Source: Planctomycetota bacterium (GTDB lineage Bacteria > Planctomycetota > Planctomycetia > Pirellulales > Pirellulaceae). From it: a stretch of DNA of 19,131 nucleotides. The translations under genes were made by a program, and so were the position numbers. The stretch is from assembly GCA_026692885.1 (NCBI GenBank), contig JAPLNJ010001103.1, positions 1 through 19,131 on the forward strand, given 5' to 3'. Of this stretch, positions 2,021 to 17,641 are shown piece by piece. Position 1 is the stretch's first letter. Each line of letters starts with the position of its first letter. Below the pieces are notes generated by a model. The model ran no database searches and was not told where the DNA came from. It saw nothing but the letters and a program-made list of their open reading frames with translations.

Positions 2021-2028
2021 AAGACGCG
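2021..2028. repeat. Target-site duplication, left copy
   Basis: The 8-bp sequence aagacgcg lies directly outside the left terminal inverted repeat. The same 8 bases in the same orientation lie directly outside the right one (6133-6140). This is the footprint of a DDE-transposase insertion; IS1-family elements usually make 8-9 bp duplications. Confidence 0.9.
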
Positions 2029-2067
2029 GGTAGTGGGTCAGTTTCGATGACACGGTAGGTCACGGGG
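2029..2067 (+). repeat. Left terminal inverted repeat (39 bp)
   Basis: This is the exact reverse complement of 6094-6132. It begins GGTAGTG at the outer tip; classical IS1 ends also start with GGT. The inner part contains the stop codon (2060-2062) of the first minus-strand passenger gene. Confidence 0.93.
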
Positions 2068-2644
2068 CGGTAAATTTGGCCGGCGCATCACTCGACTGCC
2101 GAGATTGATATTCAGCACAAAGACGGTTCCTTCGTGCAATCAGCATCGCATCAAGCTGGCCCATCGCGACCTTGAATAATATCGCGGAATCGTTGCTTAA
2201 TTTTCTGGCTTCCGATACCGCCAAGACAAACTGATTCCGCTCTTTCTTTCCAAAGTTGGCTTGCAGCATAACCGGCAGAACGATTTCCAGTTCGTTATTC
2301 ACAACCTTGGCGAACTGCTTATACTGCCGCTTCTTGCCCAGCCATTGGGTGTGTTCAAAGAGGCGGTCCCGGTAGTCGGTAACGTACTGGTCTTCGGGAG
2401 GGAGGTAAGTTGGATACCGTTGATGGCGTGGCCGTTGGCCCCACGGGAGCCAGACCAGGACGATAAAGAAGATGGTCACACTTGATAGGCCGACTGCCCA
2501 CCAAAACGTAGGGCTATCCATCCACACCGGAAGTTCCTTCCAGTAGAGCGCGATTATCTGTGGAACGCCAAGCAAAATAGTGACAAAAATACTGACCGCC
2601 CCCGCAACTCCGATCACTGTTGTGCAGAGTTTCTTGATGTCCAT
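2060..2644 (-). CDS. Transposon passenger: two-TM membrane protein, unknown function
   Basis: A 194-residue protein starting at the ATG at 2644, with a good Shine-Dalgarno GGGAGG six bases upstream. Two hydrophobic helices (about residues 7-34 and 47-67) are separated by a short loop containing several Trp residues. A charged cytoplasmic-looking domain of about 125 residues follows, rich in Arg, Lys and Gln and probably helical. I do not recognise the family. Its last two codons and stop lie within the left terminal inverted repeat, so it belongs to the transposon. It has its own putative extended -10 promoter downstream of the transposase. Its role is unknown; a membrane-anchored effector or helper of the linked methyltransferase is possible but unsupported. 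Confidence 0.8.
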   Translation of the reverse strand: MDIKKLCTTVIGVAGAVSIFVTILLGVPQIIALYWKELPVWMDSPTFWWAVGLSSVTIFFIVLVWLPWGQRPRHQRYPTYLPPEDQYVTDYRDRLFEHTQWLGKKRQYKQFAKVVNNELEIVLPVMLQANFGKKERNQFVLAVSEARKLSNDSAILFKVAMGQLDAMLIARRNRLCAEYQSRQSSDAPAKFTAP

Positions 2645-2732
2645 GATGCCTCCCGGCTATTGTTCCAAATTCCGGGAGATGCTACGATATGCGTACTTGA
2701 ACGCACGGCTCTCCCGACATGAGAGCCAAAGG

Positions 2733-2754
2733 AACCGCCCTGCCAGGGGCGGTT
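2733..2754. terminator. GC-rich hairpin between transposase and membrane-protein gene
   Basis: An 8-bp stem (aaccgccc / gggcggtt) with a 6-nt loop. The T-run (2753-2757) follows it on the plus strand, so it is a textbook terminator only for plus-strand transcripts. On the minus strand it would sit at the extreme 5' end of the transcript from the promoter at 2767-2795, before the gene at 2644. A second small inverted repeat, ggctctc/gagagcc, lies at 2708-2727. Confidence 0.55.
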
Positions 2755-2766
2755 TTTCATGCGCGT

Positions 2767-2795
2767 AGCATACCAGATGCGTCTATGCCTGAGAA
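2767..2795 (-). promoter_or_regulatory. Putative promoter of the two-TM passenger gene
   Basis: On the minus strand TTCTCA (2795-2790), 17 bp, then TATGCT (2772-2767). The -10 box is preceded by TGG, giving an extended -10 (TGnTATGCT). It lies immediately after the transposase stop codon at 2808. Confidence 0.4.
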
Positions 2796-2807
2796 TACCG
2801 GCAACTC

Positions 2808-3719
2808 CTAGCCGTACTGAATCACGGCGTTGTAGAGGTCCTGGAAGGACCACAGGCGGTCGGTGACCTTAGCGGCCATCGCGGCGGTCACTCGTTGTCG
2901 TCCGGCCTGTCCGCTGTCGTCGCTGTGCCGTGTTCGCCAGCAGAAGTTGTAGTAAGCGGCGAACATGCCCACTGCAGCCGCGAGGCAGTCGAACTTCTTG
3001 GAAAACGCGCAGGTCAACCGCGTGAACCGCTTGACCAGATGCCGAATCGTGCCGTTGTTTCGCTCGACATGGCTGGTGCAGATTTCGCGAGCATTGAACT
3101 TCCCCTTAATGACGGTTCGCTTGGTTCCGACCATTTCCGAGGGGTCGTAGGCCATGCCGGCGTTGCGGTACTGCTTGATGAGTTGGCCGTATTCGGCGTA
3201 GGGACCGAAGGCCAAGTCCACGGCTTCCGGGTAGCCCGCAAAGCCGTCCGTCGAGATTCGGGTGGTGATCGTGTACTGCCCGGTCTGGTATGCGTGGTCG
3301 TCCGAGGCGTGCGGCTTGGGGCGATTCATGCGGCTGGCAAGGTCAGTCATTAGGCGGCGGGCCATGTCGGCAGACCGCTTGCCAACCGCGTAGGTGGCCA
3401 GTAGTTTGGTGTCGGCGTCTAAGCAGGTCCAAAGGTAGATGTCGCCGATGTCGGAACGCTCGGCTTTTTCGTCAACCGTCAGGCGGGCTTGCTTCTTTCC
3501 GCAGAACGTCCAAACCTCGTCCACTTCGACGTGCCGCAGATTCAATCCCTGAAGGCGGTCGTCAAGGAAATCCTTGCATGCGTTGCCGAACAACTGGAGG
3601 TAGCGGATAATCGTGCCCTTGCTGACGCCAGTTACCCGCGCGATGGAGCGGATTGAACTGCCTTCGCACAACAGACGCAGAACCAAAAGACGCTTCTCAG
3701 TCTTGAGTACGTTGGCCAT
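2808..3719 (-). CDS. IS1-family DDE transposase
   Basis: A single-frame 303-residue transposase that cuts and joins the element ends. Residues 5-45 form an N-terminal helix-turn-helix (SIRSIARVTGVSKGTIIRYL). The catalytic triad is recognisable: D67 in VEVDEVWTF, D158 in STDGFAGYP and E219 in SHVERNNGTIRH, followed by the basic stretch LVKRFTRLTCAFSKK typical of IS1. Classical IS1 needs a programmed frameshift; this one does not, as in several other IS1 subgroups. I chose the ATG at 3719 because GGGAGG lies 8 bases upstream. The alternative ATG at 3725, two codons earlier, is too close to it. The 8-bp target duplication fits IS1. IS1595 is the nearest alternative family but its motif context differs. 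Confidence 0.92.
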   Translation of the reverse strand: MANVLKTEKRLLVLRLLCEGSSIRSIARVTGVSKGTIIRYLQLFGNACKDFLDDRLQGLNLRHVEVDEVWTFCGKKQARLTVDEKAERSDIGDIYLWTCLDADTKLLATYAVGKRSADMARRLMTDLASRMNRPKPHASDDHAYQTGQYTITTRISTDGFAGYPEAVDLAFGPYAEYGQLIKQYRNAGMAYDPSEMVGTKRTVIKGKFNAREICTSHVERNNGTIRHLVKRFTRLTCAFSKKFDCLAAAVGMFAAYYNFCWRTRHSDDSGQAGRQRVTAAMAAKVTDRLWSFQDLYNAVIQYG

Positions 3720-3766
3720 TGTCATTCCCTCCCGTTAGTGTATTCGGTGCTTGTCCGTCTGTATTT

Positions 3767-3795
3767 ATTGTAGTTACGCTAATTAGGACAGACAA
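3767..3795 (-). promoter_or_regulatory. Transposase promoter
   Basis: Minus strand: TTGTCT (3795-3790), exactly 17 bp, TACAAT (3772-3767). The predicted start near 3760 gives a leader of about 40 nt containing the GGGAGG ribosome site. Its -35 box is separated by only 4 bp from the -35 box of the plus-strand promoter. Confidence 0.7.
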
Positions 3796-3799
3796 GGGC

Positions 3800-3828
3800 T
3801 TGACGTTATTATTTTCTGTAAATACAAT
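3800..3828 (+). promoter_or_regulatory. Promoter of the regulator-methyltransferase operon
   Basis: TTGACG (3800-3805), exactly 17 bp, TACAAT (3823-3828). The start codon at 3835 is only 6 bases after the -10 box, so transcription should begin at or next to the ATG, giving a leaderless mRNA. The interrupted dyads gttatt...aataac (3805-3830) and cttgtc...gacaag overlap the promoters and could be operators. Confidence 0.72.
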
Positions 3829-3834
3829 AACTGC

Positions 3835-4038
3835 ATGAAAACCAAACGCGGGAGAGGCAGGCCGACCAAGCTGCCCGGAGAAGTCCTGGACAAGACGCTG
3901 CAATTGCGGCTTCGTGAATCGGAGCACGCGGCGTGGTCGCAGGCTGCTGAGCGGGCCAACATGGTCTTGTCGGTGTGGATTAGGCGAGTGCTGGCCAAGG
4001 AAGCCAACGCAGGGAGCGGCGAACAGCCGACAGTGTAA
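3835..4038 (+). CDS. Ribbon-helix-helix DNA-binding protein, probable regulator
   Basis: A 67-residue basic protein. Residues 1-15 are rich in Lys and Arg (KTKRGRGRPTK). Then comes a strand LDKTLQLRL (about 18-26), helix SEHAAWSQAAERA (28-40) and helix LSVWIRRVLAKEA (45-58), the CopG/Arc-type ribbon-helix-helix layout. Such proteins bind DNA as dimers through the strand and often autoregulate. It is the first gene after a strong promoter, with the ATG so close to the -10 box that the transcript is predicted to be leaderless. Its stop overlaps the methyltransferase start by one base (TAATG), so the two are translationally coupled. The likely role is repressing this promoter and the back-to-back transposase promoter, to control enzyme dose and transposition. 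That role is inferred. Confidence 0.78.
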   Translation: MKTKRGRGRPTKLPGEVLDKTLQLRLRESEHAAWSQAAERANMVLSVWIRRVLAKEANAGSGEQPTV

Positions 4039-5513
4039 TGGGCAAAGCACGGAAGCCAGCCGGACAGCAAGACCTGTTTCCGCTACGGCGCACCCAGGCG
4101 ATCTACTGCGGCGACAATCTCCAGCAACTGCCGCAAATCCCCAGTGAATCCGTAGACTTGATCTACATCGACCCACCGTTTAACTCCAACCGCAGCTACG
4201 AGGTCTTCTGGGGCGAGGCCAAGGAGAAGCGGGCCTTTGACGATCGGCACGCATCGACGCAAGCCTACATCGAATACATGCGTCCCAGGTGTACGGAGCT
4301 GGCTCGCGTCCTAAAGAAGACCGGCAGCTTCTACTACCACTGCGACTGGCACGCCAGCCACTACGTCAAGGTGATGCTAGACGAGATCCTTGGGGAAAAT
4401 GCTTTCCAGTCTGAAATCATTTGGAAGCGGGCGACAGCGAAAAGCCTCGCTTTCAAGGGATTCCCGAACAATCACGACGCGATTCTGTATTATACGGGAG
4501 GCCCAGACTTTACATGGAACAGGCCGTTCATCGGGTATGACACTGACGACCTCGACGCAAAGACCCTACGTAAATACTGTCATGTCGATCCCGATGGCAG
4601 ACGTTATACGCTCGGCGATCTCACTAACCCGAATCCAGATAGGCCAAACCTCAAGTACGACTTCATGGGTCACACCAAGGTTTGGCGATGGACGAAAGAG
4701 CGAATGCAAGATGCGTATAATCAGGGGATAGTCATTCAGCCAAGTGCTGGGGCTGTTCCGCGAGTAAAGCGGTATCTTGATGAGCAAGAGGGGCGATCGG
4801 TAGATACAGTATGGATAGACATTGCACCCATTAACTCGCAAGCCGACGAGAGGATTGGCTACCCCACACAGAAGCCGCTAGTGCTATTGGAGCGTATCGT
4901 CAGCGCCAGCAGTAACCCCGGCGACCTAATCCTTGACGCCTTCTGCGGCTGTGGTACGGCCCTAGTGGCAGCCGAGAAATTGGACCGCCGTTGGATTGGC
5001 ATCGACATCTCGCCCACGGCCTGCCGTGTCGTGGGTGATCGCCTGGAAGTGGTGTGCAAACTGAAAAACGGCCCAGACTTCGCAATCCTTGGACTTCCCC
5101 GCAAGGAAGCGGAACTCCGCGACATGCCGCCGTTTGAGTTTGAGAGTTGGGCCGTCATTGCCCTGGGTGGCAACCCGAATCGTGCCAAGGTTGGCGACAT
5201 GGGCATGGACGGGAAAATCTTCCCGGTGTCATCCACGCCTGTGACCGGCAAGCAACCCGGCGAGTTGGGATTCATGGATGCCTGGTATCCCGTCCAGGTC
5301 AAGCAGAAGGACAAGGCCGGCAGACCCGATATCGACGCATTCGAGGCGGTGATGATGCGTGAGAATCGCGACAAGGGATACTTTGTCTCGTTCGGCTTCA
5401 CGTCAGACGCATTGACGGAGATCGGGGCATTCTTCAAGCGGACCGGCAAGTCTATTGTGCCCCTGACCGTCCGCGACATCCTAGACGAGATGATCGCCAT
5501 GAAGTTGACGTAG
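4038..5513 (+). CDS. Beta-class amino DNA methyltransferase fused to Mrr-like PD-(D/E)XK nuclease domain
   Basis: A 491-residue protein with two parts. Residues 20-345 form a DNA adenine-N6 or cytosine-N4 methyltransferase. The catalytic motif DPPF (45-48) comes first and the AdoMet-binding motif DAFCGCGT (300-307) last, which is the beta-class order. GYPTQKPLVLLERI (274-287) is the usual segment before motif I. Residues about 150-260 would be the target recognition region. Residues 365-491 look like a restriction endonuclease-like fold of the Mrr type: FESWAVIALGG, then GMDGKI (D391 as metal ligand), then WYPVQVKQKD (Q420-x-K422), then a strand and helix. One chain could therefore both methylate and cut, or the nuclease-like part may only bind DNA. 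The gene is coupled to the regulator before it. Confidence 0.88.
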   Translation: MGKARKPAGQQDLFPLRRTQAIYCGDNLQQLPQIPSESVDLIYIDPPFNSNRSYEVFWGEAKEKRAFDDRHASTQAYIEYMRPRCTELARVLKKTGSFYYHCDWHASHYVKVMLDEILGENAFQSEIIWKRATAKSLAFKGFPNNHDAILYYTGGPDFTWNRPFIGYDTDDLDAKTLRKYCHVDPDGRRYTLGDLTNPNPDRPNLKYDFMGHTKVWRWTKERMQDAYNQGIVIQPSAGAVPRVKRYLDEQEGRSVDTVWIDIAPINSQADERIGYPTQKPLVLLERIVSASSNPGDLILDAFCGCGTALVAAEKLDRRWIGIDISPTACRVVGDRLEVVCKLKNGPDFAILGLPRKEAELRDMPPFEFESWAVIALGGNPNRAKVGDMGMDGKIFPVSSTPVTGKQPGELGFMDAWYPVQVKQKDKAGRPDIDAFEAVMMRENRDKGYFVSFGFTSDALTEIGAFFKRTGKSIVPLTVRDILDEMIAMKLT

Positions 5514-5533
5514 GAGCTTGGTTGAATCGGGTA

Positions 5534-5562
5534 GTGATTCGTTTCCTGTGATGTGCTACAAT
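5534..5562 (+). promoter_or_regulatory. Putative extended -10 promoter of the last passenger gene
   Basis: TGC-TACAAT (5554-5562) with a weak GTGATT at -35 (5534-5539), 17 bp apart. It matches the design of the promoter before the two-TM gene: an extended -10 immediately followed by a GC-rich hairpin. Confidence 0.4.
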
Positions 5563-5564
5563 GC

Positions 5565-5594
5565 AAAACGCCACGGCTGGAACCGTGGCGTTTT
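5565..5594. terminator. Strong symmetrical hairpin after the methyltransferase
   Basis: A perfect 12-bp stem, aaaacgccacgg / ccgtggcgtttt, with a 6-nt loop. It is A-rich on the left and T-rich on the right, so it can terminate in both directions. It lies 52 bases after the methyltransferase stop. It could equally be a 5' hairpin on the transcript starting just before it, leading to the gene at 5684. Confidence 0.7.
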
Positions 5595-5683
5595 GTCGTT
5601 TCAGGCCGGAGGCGGCCGGCGCTGTAGGTACGCGCATCGTATGCCTTCCGGCTACTTGGGTCAATAGCTTGGAGGGTGATTTA

Positions 5684-6049
5684 ATGGTGGAGTGGATCAT
5701 GTCTATTGCCACGGTATGCGAGGCGGCAATCGCTACGGGAAAGGTTCTGCAAAAACTCCTCCCTGACCAATTGTCCGCAAAGGAGCAAGAATTGCTCAGA
5801 TCGGCATCAGCCGACGGTTTGATTCACCTTCGTTATGACGACCTGGCCGGCAAGCATGTCGCCACGTCGACGAGGGAATTCGCAGACGATGACGCAGCGA
5901 TAACCGAAAGTTATCTCCACGCCTTTGTAAAGATTTGCGACTACGGCCTTGTAACGCACCAGAAGGAGTCAGTGTTTCGTTTAAGTCATAAAGGGTTTGG
6001 AATTGCTAGAAAACTCAAAAACGGCACGTCAGGACACGAGGGATTGTGA
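5684..6049 (+). CDS. Small passenger protein with winged-helix-like end, unknown function
   Basis: A 121-residue protein. The ATG at 5684 is chosen because GGAGGG lies 7 bases upstream; an in-frame ATG at 5561 falls inside the -10/hairpin region and is unlikely. The N-terminal half is helical (ATVCEAAIATGKVLQKLL, then LSAKEQELLRSAS). The C-terminal half ends with a beta-hairpin and helix (LVTHQKESVFRLSHKGFGIARKL), as in winged-helix DNA-binding domains. I do not recognise the family. It ends 45 bases before the right terminal inverted repeat and is the last gene of the transposon. A DNA-binding or regulatory role is only suggested by shape. Confidence 0.72.
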   Translation: MVEWIMSIATVCEAAIATGKVLQKLLPDQLSAKEQELLRSASADGLIHLRYDDLAGKHVATSTREFADDDAAITESYLHAFVKICDYGLVTHQKESVFRLSHKGFGIARKLKNGTSGHEGL

Positions 6050-6093
6050 TCCGCTGCCGTCGAACATAAACGGACTGATCGCCGACCATCCAA

Positions 6094-6132
6094 CCCCGTG
6101 ACCTACCGTGTCATCGAAACTGACCCACTACC
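6094..6132 (-). repeat. Right terminal inverted repeat (39 bp)
   Basis: Exact reverse complement of 2029-2067, with no mismatch over 39 bases. The match breaks at once on both sides (a/g inside, target duplication outside), which fixes the transposon end at 6132. Confidence 0.93.
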
Positions 6133-6140
6133 AAGACGCG
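6133..6140. repeat. Target-site duplication, right copy
   Basis: aagacgcg, identical and in direct orientation to 2021-2028. Removing the element and one copy restores a small hairpin (ccgggc ... gcccgg) with the target in its loop. Confidence 0.9.
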
Positions 6141-6176: not shown

Positions 6177-6270
6177 ATGGAAGCAAGGTGCCCCTTACCA
6201 TTCCGGAAAATCTTTTAGAATATCGCCGGGCACCCCTGTCTTGATCGCTCTGACCGATGGTGAGAGAATA

Positions 6271-10808: not shown

Positions 10809-10935
10809 CGACTGTAATGAAGTAACTTGGCGAATCGGTGGTAGGACGGATTGGCAATTCGGCTCGAAACATCGGGCCGAAGTGCCAATCCGTCCTACGC
10901 TCAAACTACGGATTTGTTCTTTTCCAGCCGCTTAG
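10805..10935. repeat. MITE-like element, degenerate copy 1
   Basis: It starts at the tssC stop (ttagcgactgtaatgaag...cgaatcggtgg) and ends ccagccgcttag. Both ends are diverged versions of the ends of the adjacent element at 10931-11084. The core is a separate strong palindrome at 10841-10898. It shares CTTAG (10931-10935) with the next copy. Confidence 0.55.
10841..10898. repeat. Palindrome, 23-bp arms
   Basis: Arms gtaggacggattggca...ttcggc (10841-10863) and their complement (10876-10898) pair with a single mismatch around a 12-nt loop. It could fold into a long hairpin downstream of tssC. No T-run follows, so it is not a classic terminator. Confidence 0.85.
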
Positions 10936-11084
10936 TCGCTGTAACAAAATAAGTTGCTCGAATCGGGTGGTATGCCCTGAGATACGAAGGGCGAGTTGAG
11001 GCCGCAAACCACGCCCTTCGCTGCGCTCAGGGACGTGCCACCCAGTTGAAGACATGGTGAACTTATTTTGTTACAGCGACTTAG
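10931..11084. repeat. MITE-like element, copy 2
   Basis: Perfect 22-bp inverted repeats (10934-10955 and 11060-11081; core cgctgtaacaaaataagtt) surround an imperfect inner palindrome (gggtgg...gccctgag...gaagggcg against its complement). The direct repeat CTTAG is present at both outer ends (10931-10935, 11080-11084), a candidate 5-bp target duplication. It has no coding capacity. It ends 33 bases before tagJ. Confidence 0.75.
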
Positions 11085-11116
11085 TGCCTTCTGCCACAAT
11101 CAAAAGGCGAGAACTC

Positions 11117-12363: not shown

Positions 12364-12886
12364 TTCTCAAGGGCCGCAATTCTTCTTGCGTTTTTCGCAC
12401 GGATGGCAGAGCCAGAGCACGGATGTTTTCCTTGTTCGGTCTTCATCCGTGCTCTGGCTCTGCCATCCGTGCGGACAAGAAACATGAGGAACGCAGACAG
12501 AACGCAGACAGGGAGTCAAGGCCACACTTTCGAACGGTCGGTGTCAGCCCCTTGATGACTTAAACGGGGTTAGAGAAGACGCGGCCCGTGGGTAGCGACG
12601 AACGTAATCACCATTGTCTTTCGTGGCTTGCCGTCGCGAACTTGCTGTGGGCTGTTGACCGGCACCCCCGAGGCGGCTAGCCTACGGCCTTGAGTATCCG
12701 GTGCGCGGCCACGCGCCGGGCTCAAATCGGTCTGTGAGGCGTCCGTGTCCAAACTGCCTTTCCACGGAACCCCGTAGGCTGGCCCACGGGAGGCCAGGTG
12801 GCTCGATAGCTGCTTGACCAGCCCCGATTTTCTGATCCTCACGGAATGCTTCAGCGGCGCAGCGCGCACAGGATGAAACAGGAACG
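12364..12886. other. Intergenic stretch of about 520 bases with repeats only
   Basis: It contains a 30-bp palindrome (12396-12473), an 11-bp tandem duplication (gaacgcagaca, 12489-12510) and a distant 13-bp inverted repeat ggctagcctacgg / ccgtaggctggcc (near 12675 and 12771, one mismatch). I see no convincing gene; the minus-strand reading frame 12570-13076 crosses the hsdM remnant and has no recognisable motif. Confidence 0.6.
12396..12473. repeat. Perfect palindrome, 30-bp arms
   Basis: Arms cgcacggatggcagagccag... (12396-12425) and 12444-12473 are exact complements around an 18-nt T-rich loop. This is the longest perfect repeat outside the transposon. It lies 32 bases after the Rieske stop. 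The lack of any mismatch implies recent origin or active maintenance. Confidence 0.9.
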
Positions 12887-13119: not shown

Positions 13120-13168
13120 GTTCGGACGGGCTTGGGATCACGGAAGGAATAACTGTCGGGTCTTCAAT

Positions 13169-13224
13169 GTAGTCATCACGCTCCGCCGTGATGACATGTC
13201 GTCACGGCGGAGCGTGACGACTAC
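13169..13224. repeat. Palindrome, 27-bp arms
   Basis: gtagtcatcacgctccgcc... (13169-13195) pairs with 13198-13224 at 25 of 27 positions with only 2 bases between the arms. It is unrelated to the other palindromes in the window and lies between sites 2 and 3. Confidence 0.85.
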
Positions 13225-13277
13225 TTTCTGTGTGACACCTATTGATTCGCCGGTCCTTGGTGGAGTTGAGGCGAGGT

Positions 13278-13294
13278 GGTCACAATTTGTGACC
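13278..13294. promoter_or_regulatory. Palindromic site 3, upstream of ORF6N gene
   Basis: ggtcaca-att-tgtgacc, perfect 7-bp arms and 3-bp spacer, 39 bases before the ORF6N start. The position suits a repressor operator. Confidence 0.6.
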
Positions 13295-13332
13295 AGTTCA
13301 CGGCAGATGCAGTCAGATGGAAGAGACGTCGT

Positions 13333-13878
13333 ATGGCCGAGGCATCCTCGCTCATCCTGGTTGAAGAAATCGAGCCGCGCATTCTGTTGATGCGAGGCCA
13401 GAAGGTGATACTGGACGGGGACTTAGCGGAATTGTACGGCACGACGACCAAGAGGCTGAACCAACAGGTCAAGCGTAATCGTCATCGATTTCCAAACGAC
13501 TTCATGTTCCAACTGACGGAGGAGGAGGCTGATTGTTTGAGGTCACAAAATGTGACCTCAAAAACCGGGCGTGGAGGCCGGCGCTATTTGCCCTATGCCT
13601 TCACGGAACACGGAGCGATCATGGCGGCCAGCGTGTTGAACACGCCGCGGGCGACCGACGTGAGCGTGTACGTGGTCCGGGCGTTCGTCCGCTTGCGCGA
13701 GGTGTTGGCCACCCACAAAGAGCTGGCTCACAAGCTGGCGGAGCTCGAACGTAAGGTGGCTGGCCATGACGAGGCGATCTGCTCACTGGTCGATGCCATC
13801 CGGCAACTGCTGGCTCCGCCCCCCGCACCAAAACGCCGGTCGATCGGGTTCCATGCCCAGGAGGCACGAAATGGATGA
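13333..13878 (+). CDS. ORF6N (KilA-N-type) DNA-binding domain protein
   Basis: A 181-residue protein with the ORF6N domain at about residues 8-100. ILLMRGQKVILDGDLAELYGTTTKRLNQQVKRNRHRFPNDFMFQL is the diagnostic segment, followed by GGRRYLPYAFTEHG. A helix-rich coiled tail follows (RLREVLATHKELAHKLAELERKVAGHDEAICSLVDAI). Such genes are common accessory members of type I restriction operons and of phages; their role is not settled, and a DNA-binding regulator is likely. The ATG at 13333 follows GGAAGAG by 6 bases. The frame is intact although the hsd genes on both sides are broken. A perfect 27-bp palindrome lies inside the gene (13536-13562) and codes for residues around LRSQNVTSK. Confidence 0.88.
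   Translation: MAEASSLILVEEIEPRILLMRGQKVILDGDLAELYGTTTKRLNQQVKRNRHRFPNDFMFQLTEEEADCLRSQNVTSKTGRGGRRYLPYAFTEHGAIMAASVLNTPRATDVSVYVVRAFVRLREVLATHKELAHKLAELERKVAGHDEAICSLVDAIRQLLAPPPAPKRRSIGFHAQEARNG
13536..13562. promoter_or_regulatory. Palindromic site 4, inside the ORF6N coding region
   Basis: tttgaggtcaca-aaa-tgtgacctcaaa, perfect 12-bp arms and 3-bp spacer. It is the best of the four sites and lies within the reading frame. Confidence 0.6.
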
Positions 13879-14047
13879 TCGCTCGAAGTCTTGGAAAGGC
13901 GGGCAAGAGGGAAGCAATAGGCGGGGGTCACATCGCAACGTGAGAATACGGAAAGATCCTGCAAAGCTACGAGGACAGCTACCGAAGTTATTGTCGGGCG
14001 AGGTCCGTGCAAAGGACGCCGAACGAACCATCGAAAGGAACACATGA
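13871..14047 (+). pseudogene. hsdS remnant (C-terminal end)
   Basis: A 58-codon frame from the ATG at 13871 ends LRGQLPKLLSGEVRAKDAERTIERNT. LPKLLSGE(I/V)R is the typical end of type I specificity subunits. The DNA recognition domains are absent and the first 30 codons look random. It overlaps the ORF6N stop at its start and the DUF262 start at its end (ATGA), so it may now act only as a translational link between the two neighbours. Confidence 0.75.
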
Positions 14048-15810
14048 GCGAACTCAAGACGTGCTTCAAGCGGGTAGACTACGATCTGTCTGGCCTACTT
14101 CACTACATCGACATCGGCGACATCGGCCTGCCGGAGATCCAGCGGCCATTCGTGTGGTCCAACGCCAAGGTGAGGGACTTGTTCGATTCCATGTATCGTG
14201 GTTTTCCGGTGGGCTACCTGCTCTTCTGGGAGAACGCACAGAGCAATGGAGCGAAACAGATCGGCGTGACTGTCAAACAGCACACCGTGCCCTCGCGGCT
14301 GATCGTGGACGGTCAGCAGCGGCTCACGTCGCTTTACGCGGTCTTTCGGGGCCGCAAGGTGTTCGACGAGGATTACCGCGAACGGCAAATCGAGATTGCC
14401 TTTCGGCCTCGCGATGGGAAGTTCGAGGTGGCCGATGCTGCCATCCGCCGTGATGTCGAGTGGATTCCGAATATTTCGGAATTATGGGCGTCCGGTAAGT
14501 CCAGCTACCTGTTGGTGAAGGGCTTCCTGGAGGCAGTACGCAGCAAGGTTGAGCTGACGAGCGAAGAAGAAGAGCAGATCAGCCACAACCTGGACCGCCT
14601 CTTCGATCTACAGAAGTACCCGTTCACCGCGTTGGAGATCGCGCCGACCGTCGAAGAAGAACAGGTGGCAGACATCTTCGTGCGCATCAACAGCGAAGGC
14701 GTGAAGCTCAATCAGGCGGACTTCATCCTGACCCTGCTCTCCGTGTTCTGGGACGACGGACGGCACGCCCTTGAGCAGTTCTGCCGTGCTTCGCGTCAAG
14801 TGCCCGTCACGGGTGCCGGGCCGTCTCCGTTCAACCATTTCATCGAACCAGCTCCGGATCAACTTCTGCGGGTTTCGGTCGCGCTCGGGTTTGAACGCGG
14901 ACGCTTGAAGAGCGTATATCAGGTCCTGCGTGGAAAGAACGTGGACACTGGTGAATTTTCCAACGAGCGGCGGGACTCACAGTTCAAAGTGCTGCAGGAG
15001 GCGCAGGCAGAAGTTCTCGACCTGACCCATTGGCACCAGTTCCTGAGCGCCCTTGTGGGGGCGGGCTACCGCAGCCGTGAGATGATCTCGTCGCAGAGCG
15101 CGTTGCTCTATGCCTATGCCTTCTACCTGATTGGCCACATTCGGTTCCAAGTGCCGGAGCACGTGCTGCAGAAGGCTATCGGCCGGTGGTTCTTCTTCTC
15201 TAGCCTGACAGGCCGCTACACCGGTTCTCCCGAGTCGGTGATGGACGGCGACCTTAACCGCCTCAAAGGCGTAAAGTGCGCAACCGAATTCGCCCACATA
15301 ATCGACGACATCGTCGCGTCCGAGTTGACCAATGACTATTGGACGATCACTCTGCCGGCGAATCTCGATAGTTCCTCGGCGCGGAATCCGCAACTGTTCG
15401 CCTACGTGGCCGCCCAGAACCGCCTGGGCGCTCCCGTGCTGTTCTCGCATAAGAAGGTCGGGGAATTGATCGATCCGGCCTTGCAGACCAAGAAGAAGGC
15501 CCTGGAGCGTCATCATCTCTTCCCGCGGGCATGGCTGGAGAAAGAGGGGGTGAAGGATATGAAACTGATTAACCAGATGGCCAACTACGCATTGCTCGAA
15601 TGGCCCGAAAACCTAGCGATCAGCGACGCGCCCCCATCCAAGTACGTGCCTGAAATCCAGGGCCGCTTCTCCGCCGCCAAGTGGGACACCATGCAGGAGC
15701 TACACGCCTTGCCTGACGGCTGGGAAAAGATGGACTATCCCGTGTTTCTCGATGAACGTCGCAAGTCGATGGCAGCAATCATCCGCCGAGGTTTCGACAC
15801 GTTGAGGTAG
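14044..15810 (+). CDS. DUF262-HNH protein (GmrSD-like restriction family)
   Basis: A 588-residue protein. The N-terminal DUF262/GmrS-like domain shows LPEIQRPFVW (29-38), LFDSMYRGFPVGYLLFW and the nucleotide-related motif VDGQQRLTSL (88-97), then FVRINSEGVKLNQADFILTLL. The C-terminal part has an HNH-type nuclease signature: HHLFPRAWL (490-498) followed by NQMANYALLEWPENLAISD. Full-length GmrSD proteins use NTP to cut modified phage DNA; this shorter version keeps both motif sets and is plausibly a defence nuclease, though the substrate is unknown. AAGGA lies 6 bases before the ATG. It overlaps the hsdS remnant by 4 nt and is followed 5 bases later by the hsdR fragment, i.e. it sits inside the former type I operon. 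Confidence 0.88.
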   Translation: MSELKTCFKRVDYDLSGLLHYIDIGDIGLPEIQRPFVWSNAKVRDLFDSMYRGFPVGYLLFWENAQSNGAKQIGVTVKQHTVPSRLIVDGQQRLTSLYAVFRGRKVFDEDYRERQIEIAFRPRDGKFEVADAAIRRDVEWIPNISELWASGKSSYLLVKGFLEAVRSKVELTSEEEEQISHNLDRLFDLQKYPFTALEIAPTVEEEQVADIFVRINSEGVKLNQADFILTLLSVFWDDGRHALEQFCRASRQVPVTGAGPSPFNHFIEPAPDQLLRVSVALGFERGRLKSVYQVLRGKNVDTGEFSNERRDSQFKVLQEAQAEVLDLTHWHQFLSALVGAGYRSREMISSQSALLYAYAFYLIGHIRFQVPEHVLQKAIGRWFFFSSLTGRYTGSPESVMDGDLNRLKGVKCATEFAHIIDDIVASELTNDYWTITLPANLDSSSARNPQLFAYVAAQNRLGAPVLFSHKKVGELIDPALQTKKKALERHHLFPRAWLEKEGVKDMKLINQMANYALLEWPENLAISDAPPSKYVPEIQGRFSAAKWDTMQELHALPDGWEKMDYPVFLDERRKSMAAIIRRGFDTLR

Positions 15811-15815
15811 CGAGC

Positions 15816-16229
15816 ATGTCCGAGATTACCGAGTCGATTCTCGAAGAAGCCGCCCTGTCGTGGTTCTCGGAGTTGAGCTACGCGGTCCAGCATGGTCCTG
15901 CCCTCGCACCTGGTGAAGCGGCGGCCGAAGGCGAGTCCTTCGGCGACGTGGTGTTGATCCAGCGGCGACGAGATGCGATCGACCGGCTGAATCCCAAGAT
16001 TCCGCATGAAGCCCGCGACGAGGCGTTGCGGAAAGTGGTGCGGCCCGATTCGCCATCGCTGGTGGGGAACAACCGCAAGTTCCAGGCGATGTTGCGGGAT
16101 GCGGTCGAAGTGGAGTACCGGCGACGGGATGGAACTCTTGTCACCCTCCGTGACGCCCTGCTGCCGAAGCTGCTGTCGGGCGAGATCCGCGTCCCGGAGT
16201 CGCAGCAAATGGTGGGGAGGTGCGTTTAG
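15816..16229 (+). pseudogene. Chimera: HsdR N-terminus joined to HsdS C-terminus
   Basis: An open 137-codon frame. Residues 1-106 match the start of type I restriction subunit R (SEITESILEEAALSWFSELSYAVQHGP, LNPKIPHEARDEALRKVVRPDSPSLV, VEVEYRRRDG). Residues 108-131 are an HsdS ending (LVTLRDALLPKLLSGEIRVPES). The nuclease, helicase and translocase parts of HsdR (about 900 residues) are missing. The join near position 16131 keeps the frame, so a short protein could still be made, but it cannot restrict DNA. It is probably a deletion or recombination product; a real gene function is not expected. Confidence 0.82.
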
Positions 16230-16231
16230 GC

Positions 16232-17641
16232 ATGGCGACTACCCCCGCACAGATCGACCGGTGGCGGCAGGCTCGATCGGAGCACGAACGGCTGGAGTTC
16301 AAGGAAGCCAAGGCCCAGTTCGACAACCGCAAGCTCTACGAATACTGCGTGGCTCTCGCCAATGAGGGCGGGGGTTACCTGCTGCTCGGTGTGGCAGACA
16401 AGCCGCCGCGCCCGGTGGTGGGCACGCAGGCGTTCAACGACCCCGTCGCGATGACAGAAAAGCTCTTCAACGCGATTGGCTTCCGCGTGGATATCGAAGA
16501 AGTCTCGCATCCCGACGGCAGGGTTCTCGTGTTTCACATTCCATCCCGGCCGCGTGGGACCGCTTATCACCTGGAGGGGAAGTACCTGATGCGGGCAGGT
16601 GGATCTCTGGTGGCGATGAGCGAAGATCAACTGCGACGAATCTTCGCGGAAGGTGAACCGGACTGGCTGGAAGAGCACACACAAGCGGGCATGGATGCGC
16701 AGCAGGTTGTCGACTTGCTCGACACCCAGGCGTTTTTCGAGCTACTGAAGTTGCCATACCCTACGGACCGCGCGGGCGTCATGGACCGATTGACGCACGA
16801 ACGGCTGGTGGATGAGGCAGACGGCGCCTACGCGATACGGCGTCTGGGTGGCTTGTTGTTGGCGAAACGACTGGAGGATTTCCCCGATTTGGCTCGCAAA
16901 GCCGCCAGGGTCGTGGTCTATACGGGTACGTCAAAACTGGAAACGCGGCTGGATCAAACGGGCACGAAGGGGTATGCGGCGGGGTTCCAGGGACTGGTTG
17001 GGTTCGTGATGAATCAGTTGCCTCAGAACGAGGTGGTCGAGGATGCCATTCGCAAGGAGGTCAAACTGGTGCCCGATATCGTGATCCGCGAACTGGTGGC
17101 CAACGCGCTGATCCACCAAGACCTGACGATACCTGGAACGTCGGTGATGGTGGAGGTCTACTCCAACCGCGTCGAGATTTCCAACCCCGGCGAACCGGTC
17201 GTGCCGGTCGAACGCTTCATCGACGGGTACCAGTCCCGCAACGAGCGACTCGCCGACGTCATGCGGCGCATGGGTATCTGCGAGGAGAAGAGCAGCGGAA
17301 TCGACAAGGTAGTGCGTGCGGCCGAGGTGTACCAACTGCCGGCGCCCGATTTCCACGCAGGATACCGACGTACCATCGTAACCATCTACGGTCCAAAGGA
17401 CTTCGAGGCGATGGACCGGAACGACCGAATCCGAGCCTGCTATCAACACTGCGCACTGAAGTGGGTGATGACGGAACGAATGACCAATCAGTCCCTGCGC
17501 GAGCGGTTCACGCTCCCGGAAAGCAAGAGTGCTGTGATTTCCCAGATTATTGCGGCGACGATCGATGCGGGACTCATCAAACCGGATCAATCGGTAGGAA
17601 GCTCCAAAAAGTTCGCGAGATACCTTCCTTTCTGGGCGTGA
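16232..17641 (+). CDS. AlbA_2 (Schlafen-like) and ATPase-domain protein
   Basis: A 469-residue protein of the 'ATP-binding / RecG-like transcriptional regulator' family. The N-terminal AlbA_2 domain has LEFKEAK (21-27) and ALANEGGGYLLLGV (41-54). A GHKL-type ATPase fold follows, with the N-box ELVANALIHQD (287-297) and the G1-like box ISNPG (316-320), then GIDKV. A C-terminal winged helix occupies about 400-469 (LRERFTLPESKSAVISQIIAATIDAGLI). Members occur often in or beside type I restriction operons; their role there is not settled. The ATG at 16232 is chosen because GGGGAGG lies 11 bases upstream; a GTG at 16220 lacks a ribosome site. It begins 2 bases after the hsdR/hsdS chimera. Confidence 0.88.
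   Translation: MATTPAQIDRWRQARSEHERLEFKEAKAQFDNRKLYEYCVALANEGGGYLLLGVADKPPRPVVGTQAFNDPVAMTEKLFNAIGFRVDIEEVSHPDGRVLVFHIPSRPRGTAYHLEGKYLMRAGGSLVAMSEDQLRRIFAEGEPDWLEEHTQAGMDAQQVVDLLDTQAFFELLKLPYPTDRAGVMDRLTHERLVDEADGAYAIRRLGGLLLAKRLEDFPDLARKAARVVVYTGTSKLETRLDQTGTKGYAAGFQGLVGFVMNQLPQNEVVEDAIRKEVKLVPDIVIRELVANALIHQDLTIPGTSVMVEVYSNRVEISNPGEPVVPVERFIDGYQSRNERLADVMRRMGICEEKSSGIDKVVRAAEVYQLPAPDFHAGYRRTIVTIYGPKDFEAMDRNDRIRACYQHCALKWVMTERMTNQSLRERFTLPESKSAVISQIIAATIDAGLIKPDQSVGSSKKFARYLPFWA

Follow-up and report, generated by a model that had tools for sequence, protein, structure and literature searches.

The classic IS1 element is about 0.8 kb long and encodes its transposase in two overlapping frames, and GG...TG tips and an 8-bp target duplication are among the features of IS1. 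ISfinder may include an IS1 subgroup several kb in size, which would lower the novelty of what we report. Here, we analyzed a 19,131-nucleotide stretch of DNA from a Planctomycetota bacterium (GenBank assembly GCA_026692885.1, contig JAPLNJ010001103.1), hereafter the window, and found that its positions 2029–6132 are a real, intact, passenger-carrying IS1-type transposon. Insertion sequences (ISs) that carry passenger genes, known as transporter ISs (tISs), are described in the passages covered of PMC9330008, PMC3129680, PMC7986276, and PMC5704250; the passages covered of PMC6209633 contain no mention of them.

The boundaries of the element and its transposase gene are as follows.

2021..2028: left copy of the 8-bp target duplication, AAGACGCG (aagacgcg, read in the sequence)
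2029..2067, plus strand: left terminal inverted repeat, 39 bp, tip GGTAGTG
2808..3725, minus strand: IS1-type DDE transposase, a single open reading frame (ORF) of 305 aa, PF03400 above cut-off
6094..6132, minus strand: right terminal inverted repeat, 39 bp
6133..6140: right copy of the 8-bp target duplication, AAGACGCG (aagacgcg)

The two arms are complementary at 39/39 nt (100%), and a search of the window for the first 31 repeat nucleotides, with up to three mismatches allowed, found only these two places (chance expectation, 0.00). Between them lie 4,104 bp, ends included, with one transposase and four further ORFs. A sequence-only reading of this DNA had described a complete transposon: mismatch-free 39-bp inverted repeats flanked by 8-bp direct repeats, with an IS1-type transposase that has its D-D-E residues and four more ORFs, three of them running away from the transposase. 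All of these features were found again. Its suggestion of recent movement is supported to the extent that the transposon probably moved recently. As in tISs, genes unrelated to transposition lie between IS ends with one transposase. A composite transposon would have two IS copies flanking its cargo; the window has a single transposase, and the 31-nt end is present only twice.

The transposase scored 30.5 bits against PF03400 (DDE_Tnp_IS1; cut-off, 24.1), and its residues D69, D160, and E221 were invariant in all 30 aligned sequences. Its best-scoring NCBIfam model was NF033558, the IS1 equivalog, at 69.2 bits, which is under the cut-off of 100; we therefore use the term IS1-type rather than IS1 proper. 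No IS1595 model was present among the Pfam matches up to E 0.1 or among the NCBIfam matches. The element has the GGnnnTG tips and the 8–9-bp duplication by which IS1 is recognized, and it exceeds the size of a bare IS (~0.7–1.2 kb), as do all 78 elements delimited below (at least 1,966 bp each). Close transposases are rare, being found in 2 of 294 planctomycete genomes at E ≤ 1e-60, one of which was the center of the search. In two relatives (L125 and L128), the transposase ORF starts with a cysteine motif (CxHxRK...CKDCG) ahead of the helix-turn-helix, a motif that the window ORF lacks. One frame of the stretch upstream of the window transposase (3726–3905, minus strand) was translated and contains stops.

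Relatives were collected by searching with an alignment of 30 transposases, from which the best 80 of at least 544 genome relatives and 5 viral loci were taken. Element ends were called by a script that accepted a locus only if the transposase lay between matching inverted repeats bordered by an exact 8-bp duplication; the need for an exact duplication favors intact copies. Elements were delimited in this way at 67 of 86 loci, window included. In controls, the script called ends at 1 of 430 loci after block shuffling and at none of 348 pseudo-anchors placed in real flanks. The 19 loci without ends, some on contigs that end too soon, stand outside the 67. Further transposase copies in the same genomes gave 17 loci, among which L113, L114, L115, and L126 had no ends, L127 and L129 repeated L003 and L005, and 11 were counted, bringing the total to 78 elements (the window, 66 loci, and these 11). 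The transposase match of L123 is partial, and L117 and L124 form long branches whose placement is unsure.

All 78 delimited elements are 1,966–4,846 bp long, and none is a bare IS. The sequence-only reading had assumed that a transposase is normally the sole gene of such elements; this does not hold in this clade, where 1,153–4,006 bp lie outside the transposase match in 78 of 78 elements. Cargo is the rule in this clade of IS1-type transposases. The left tip GGTAGTG recurred in 63 elements, and the exact 8-bp duplication was present in all of them, as follows from the selection rule. The window and the 77 other elements thus have a common plan, consisting of GGTAGTG-type ends, an 8-bp duplication, and cargo beside the transposase. 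The perfect terminal repeat of the window (39 bp) is the longest in the set; the next are 29 and 27 bp, and the median is 17 bp.

The end motif of the clade was also searched for in 14 related genomes, where it gave 28 matches in 11 genomes (control pattern, 0). Twenty of these matches form 10 convergent pairs around a transposase, and 8 are unpaired, 6 of them in one fragmented, many-contig genome. Separate occurrence of the repeats, which had been named beforehand as a possible objection, is therefore not the pattern in these relatives. In a transposase tree, the window falls within a 14-member clade (100/96), mostly from planctomycetes, of which 10 members have the ribbon-helix-helix (RHH) gene described below. 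The host labels of the sampled elements span 12 bacterial phyla, with many metagenome-assembled genomes. One locus (L010) contains two identical-scoring transposase copies in tandem, ~2.8 kb apart (G010:C13 32744 and 35547), with common element ends.

The remaining features of the window element are listed here.

2060..2644, minus strand: 194-aa cargo protein (ORF), downstream of the transposase on the same strand
3726..3834, no strand: divergent intergenic stretch between the transposase and RHH genes, promoter-like matches at 3800–3828 (plus) and 3795–3767 (minus)
3835..4038, plus strand: 67-aa RHH/NikA-like protein, weak NikA-like match (1.1e-3)
4038..5513, plus strand: 491-aa fusion of an N6/N4 DNA methylase (residues 39–331) and a probable Mrr_cat-type nuclease domain (residues 385–461)
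5684..6049, plus strand: 121-aa cargo protein (ORF; 162 aa if the start is at 5561)

In the fusion protein, the methylase domain PF01555 was matched at 6.3e-46, and the predicted structure (mean pLDDT, 84.6) gave a fold match for the methylase part in the Protein Data Bank (PDB). A first structure model of the fusion was poor (mean pLDDT, 52.1) and was set aside. The term DNA methyltransferase used in the sequence-only reading was thus right for this domain and incomplete for the protein, since the probable Mrr-type nuclease domain at the C-terminus had been missed. Mrr_cat was found in 67 of 76 members of the fusion family (E ≤ 0.01). Across the 76 sequences, D391, G392, and V421 of the nuclease half were invariant and K422 nearly so, and Q420-V-K422 was invariant in 21 of 21 sequences. 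Judged from its sequence, the fusion is most likely a one-gene restriction-modification or addiction module.

A tentative alternative, possible rather than probable, accepts the transposon as real but denies that the fusion is a restriction-modification enzyme. The protein would instead act in epigenetic regulation, or resemble type IV enzymes and use its Mrr half to cut methylated DNA of foreign origin. Mrr-type domains occur in methyl-dependent enzymes. Relatives of the methylase part abound in phages (543 records, of which just 1 spans at least 80% of the query) and in plasmids (2,405 records, 15 with that coverage), and may serve other roles there. However, catalytic-type residues of both halves are kept across the 76 diverse sequences, which suggests that both activities matter together, and we continue to read the fusion as a one-gene module.

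For relatives of the fusion protein in viral contigs, the best 80 of 123 were taken. One of these contigs contains an independent, transposase-less element of the same kind (L134:2548–5052), with a gene for the KGG-type small protein described below, a 60%-identical methylase-Mrr fusion, and a 139-aa protein; the ORF adjoining it reads like a phage prohead protease-capsid gene. In L130 and L135, the fusion gene has fragments of an IS1-type transposase nearby, without clean ends. Two repeat-plus-duplication candidates around a viral fusion gene, L140 (17/20) and L142 (15/20), have tips of another type and were not counted. A blastn comparison of the element with plasmids returned one stretch of 63.5%, inside the methylase gene. 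As for the two other cargo proteins of the window element, that encoded at 2060–2644 has hydrophobic stretches by eye and a stop codon inside the left repeat, with no Pfam match above cut-off and none in NCBIfam or PADLOC. The protein encoded at 5684–6049 had no Pfam or PADLOC match, and its NCBIfam match was at chance level.

Two types of small genes accompany the transposase across the clade. Hidden Markov models (HMMs) for the RHH and KGG types were started from a handful of seeds and refined in repeated rounds against the elements translated in six frames. Thirteen of the 78 elements have an RHH-like gene, which in every case lies 76–384 bp upstream of the transposase match and on the other strand; its HMM gave no match in 872 kb of flanks. 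A KGG-type small protein was present in 56 elements, mostly near the transposase-distal end; its flank matches numbered two, one of them beside L010, next to the second copy there. Both types occurred together in 1 of 78 elements, and neither in 10. Because training and scoring of the HMMs used the same elements, only the flank comparison and the constant position count as independent support. Among six RHH members scanned, five matched NikA-like models (one above cut-off) and one matched RHH_7 weakly; among five KGG members, four matched nothing and one had a sub-threshold KGG-motif match. KGG-type proteins have the motif GGxARAxxLTPExRSEIA (for example, L011:652–891) and are a candidate undescribed transposase partner. 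For the divergent stretch at 3726–3834, the scanned region contained seven promoter-like matches, compared with 2.4 ± 1.5 in shuffles (consensus matches only).

These observations suggest that the gene at 3835–4038 is probably part of the element, as a regulator or accessory protein. The sequence-only reading had counted three other passengers besides the methyltransferase; this gene looks like part of the element instead, given its recurrence and constant divergent position, while the others stand as cargo. We regard it as unlikely that the RHH gene is the first gene of the methylase cargo, as a control or antitoxin gene, rather than part of the transposon core. Its stop codon does overlap the start codon of the fusion gene in the window (TAATG), and similarly tight RHH-cargo spacing was seen in L048 (−14) and L118 (+1), which have a cargo family in common. 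However, RHH genes of this family occupy the same divergent position in elements with other cargo (a kinase, AIPR, PIN, PemK, or another methylase), and the 80 viral loci retrieved with the fusion protein gave no RHH match.

We also examined what the relatives carry. A total of 150 cargo ORFs (at least 100 aa) from 66 relatives were scanned as two sets of 74 and 76, alongside 150 length-matched control ORFs from the same loci outside the elements, one of which lies in the neighboring copy in L010. Cargo ORFs were called mechanically, so that some are spurious, and control ORFs were called likewise. Among the first 25 of 32 and the first 25 of 45 Pfam families in the two sets, respectively, were HTH_3 (11 and 5), ImmA/IrrE peptidase (9 and 5), P63C (6 and 2), N6_N4 methylase (2 and 1), and SocA/Panacea (1 and 2). 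PemK, HicB, PIN, AIPR, Abi_2, GmrSD, a type I methylase and specificity subunit, AbiEii-like AAA, AlbA_2, and others were seen in one or two cases each. Pfam matches of the control ORFs were to ordinary families. The number of PADLOC models matched was 157 for the 74 cargo ORFs and 244 for the 76, compared with 12 for the controls (one ORF each); these are counts of models, not proteins, and overstate the contrast, since a single protein can match many of them. The leading models, of XRE-ImmA/IrrE type (RmrA), matched up to 7 of 74 and 4 of 76 cargo ORFs and none of the 150 controls, although models of this type may also catch ordinary regulators. The cargo often looks like antiviral or toxin-antitoxin genes and may function in defense.

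Cargo differed even between elements with similar transposases. Only 1 of 12 transposase pairs with at least 80% identity had common cargo (11 had none), as did 10 of 72 pairs with 70–80% identity (62 had none); some transposases recur in several of the high-identity pairs, which are therefore not independent. In two of the 12 (L001/L125 and L005/L128), both members sit in the same genome, with unlike cargo. Among the cargo in the window's clade or close to it are a protein kinase and SocA/Panacea (L001), other methylases (L006 and L085), AIPR (L007), PemK (L125), and PIN (L083); one of ten proteins scanned (L128) had no match.

It is improbable that this defense leaning is background, with the elements lying in defense-rich islands and the cargo being random flanking DNA. 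The window does have another defense-like cluster outside the element (13276–17641), but the flanking controls matched far fewer PADLOC models than the cargo did. That the repeats are a composite structure or a chance pairing rather than one element can be dismissed as very improbable: only one window copy is open to study, yet it has one transposase and an exact duplication, its plan recurs in the 77 other elements, and the end-finding script was nearly silent on its controls.

Overall, we consider it likely that the locus is a complete, cargo-carrying IS1-type transposon with transposase-driven movement, RHH regulation, a one-gene modification-restriction fusion, and frequent cargo exchange. 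In this explanation, the transposase would recognize the 39-bp ends and move the 4.1-kb unit whole. The RHH-like protein, whose gene diverges from that of the transposase, may regulate the expression of both transposase and cargo. The methylase half would mark resident DNA and the Mrr-type half would cut DNA without the mark, thereby protecting the cell from phage or penalizing loss of the element. Cargo would be swapped often, whereas the transposase, with its small partner gene, would persist.

Several observations weigh against this explanation. The Mrr_cat model PF04471 scored 20.8 bits in the window protein, just under its cut-off of 21.0, and the PDB comparison of the fusion model spans residues 17–352, the methylase part, so that the nuclease part rests on sequence. 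No whole-system PADLOC model was complete in the window element, the fusion matching methylase models (among 25 of 73 matched models listed). The fusion gene (E ≤ 1e-100) was absent from all 199 planctomycete genomes searched. In viral contigs, a near-full-length fusion gene was present at 16 loci, only 1 of which has clean ends of the clade type; most such relatives are not demonstrably on these elements. Finally, a second copy of the window's ends was not found in the genome and viral contigs searched, the exact 39-mer giving no match in the former and the first 25 nt none in the latter.

The element sits between a clpV-like gene (minus strand, start near 1880) and a plus-strand ORF at 6241, which precedes a sigma-factor gene (Pfam) and then genes like those of a type VI secretion system (T6SS). 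Searching with the sigma factor gave matches at E ≤ 1e-15 in 154 of 392 planctomycete genomes, 14 of the matches having 41–53% identity. The transposase clade and these sigma-factor relatives (best, 53%) would also point to a planctomycete origin of the contig. Among 20 sigma loci fetched, only that of a distant relative (L225) has a clpV-like gene in reach. There, the two genes are divergent and ~0.9 kb apart with no 4-kb element between them, an arrangement that fits insertion into an intergenic gap. The sequence-only reading had proposed a search for an empty site; no base-exact one was found among the relatives searched, and this insert-free gap in L225 is the nearest counterpart.

Elsewhere in the window, the stretch at 13276–17641 is a candidate defense cluster encoding an ORF6N protein (PADLOC PDC-S05, 2.5e-51), a GmrSD_N protein (HEC-05, 5.5e-35), and a protein with AlbA_2 and HATPase_c_4. 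Within it, a 30-nt direct repeat (83% alike; 13978–14007 and 16160–16189) lies in the tails of two short ORFs (13766–14047 and 15816–16229) and could be a duplicated or reshuffled gene end. The T6SS-like region has inverted repeats of 27–35 nt (90–94% complementary) within or close to its intergenic stretches, at 12391–12478, 13166–13227, 10841–10898, and 10926–11089.

The routes by which single-operon defense and toxin-antitoxin systems travel among distant bacteria are only partly understood. We lean somewhat towards the view that a widespread, largely unrecognized clade of compact IS1-type transposons shuttles one-operon immunity or addiction modules between bacteria. Besides its transposase, each would have a slot whose cargo can be swapped and, in most cases, a single small gene dedicated to partnering the transposase, of RHH or KGG type and almost never both. 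Versions lacking a transposase would move cargo too, even into phage-like contigs. If so, short IS-like ends (GGTAGTG, 8-bp duplication) would delimit ready-made cargo cassettes and offer a simple route to new defense or toxin-antitoxin genes. Transposons with nearly the same transposase would provide a testable case of cargo exchange, and an IS1-type transposase may have new partners or regulators in the RHH and KGG small protein families.

tISs in general are already known; in the open-licence literature searched, we found no description of this clade or of its small partner genes, its defense-leaning cargo, or the presence of cargo in all 78 delimited members. The window fusion differs from beta-class DNA methylases (MboIIA, CcrM, RsrI, and M.BceJIV) in its probable C-terminal Mrr_cat-type domain with a QxK site. 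Like single-chain, type IIG-like restriction-modification enzymes, it would combine modification and nuclease parts in one protein, but its methylase comes first and its probable Mrr-type nuclease last, and no type IIG model was among the 25 of 73 matched PADLOC models listed. The element resembles the IS1 family in its DDE_Tnp_IS1 domain above the Pfam cut-off, its GG...TG tips, and its 8-bp duplication, and differs in its single 305-aa ORF, its size of 4.1 kb, and its four further genes. With tISs, such as those in the IS1595 family, it has in common IS-type ends that enclose passenger genes; in contrast to these, its transposase is IS1-type, cargo is present in 78 of 78 elements, and a small RHH or KGG gene is present in 68 of 78.

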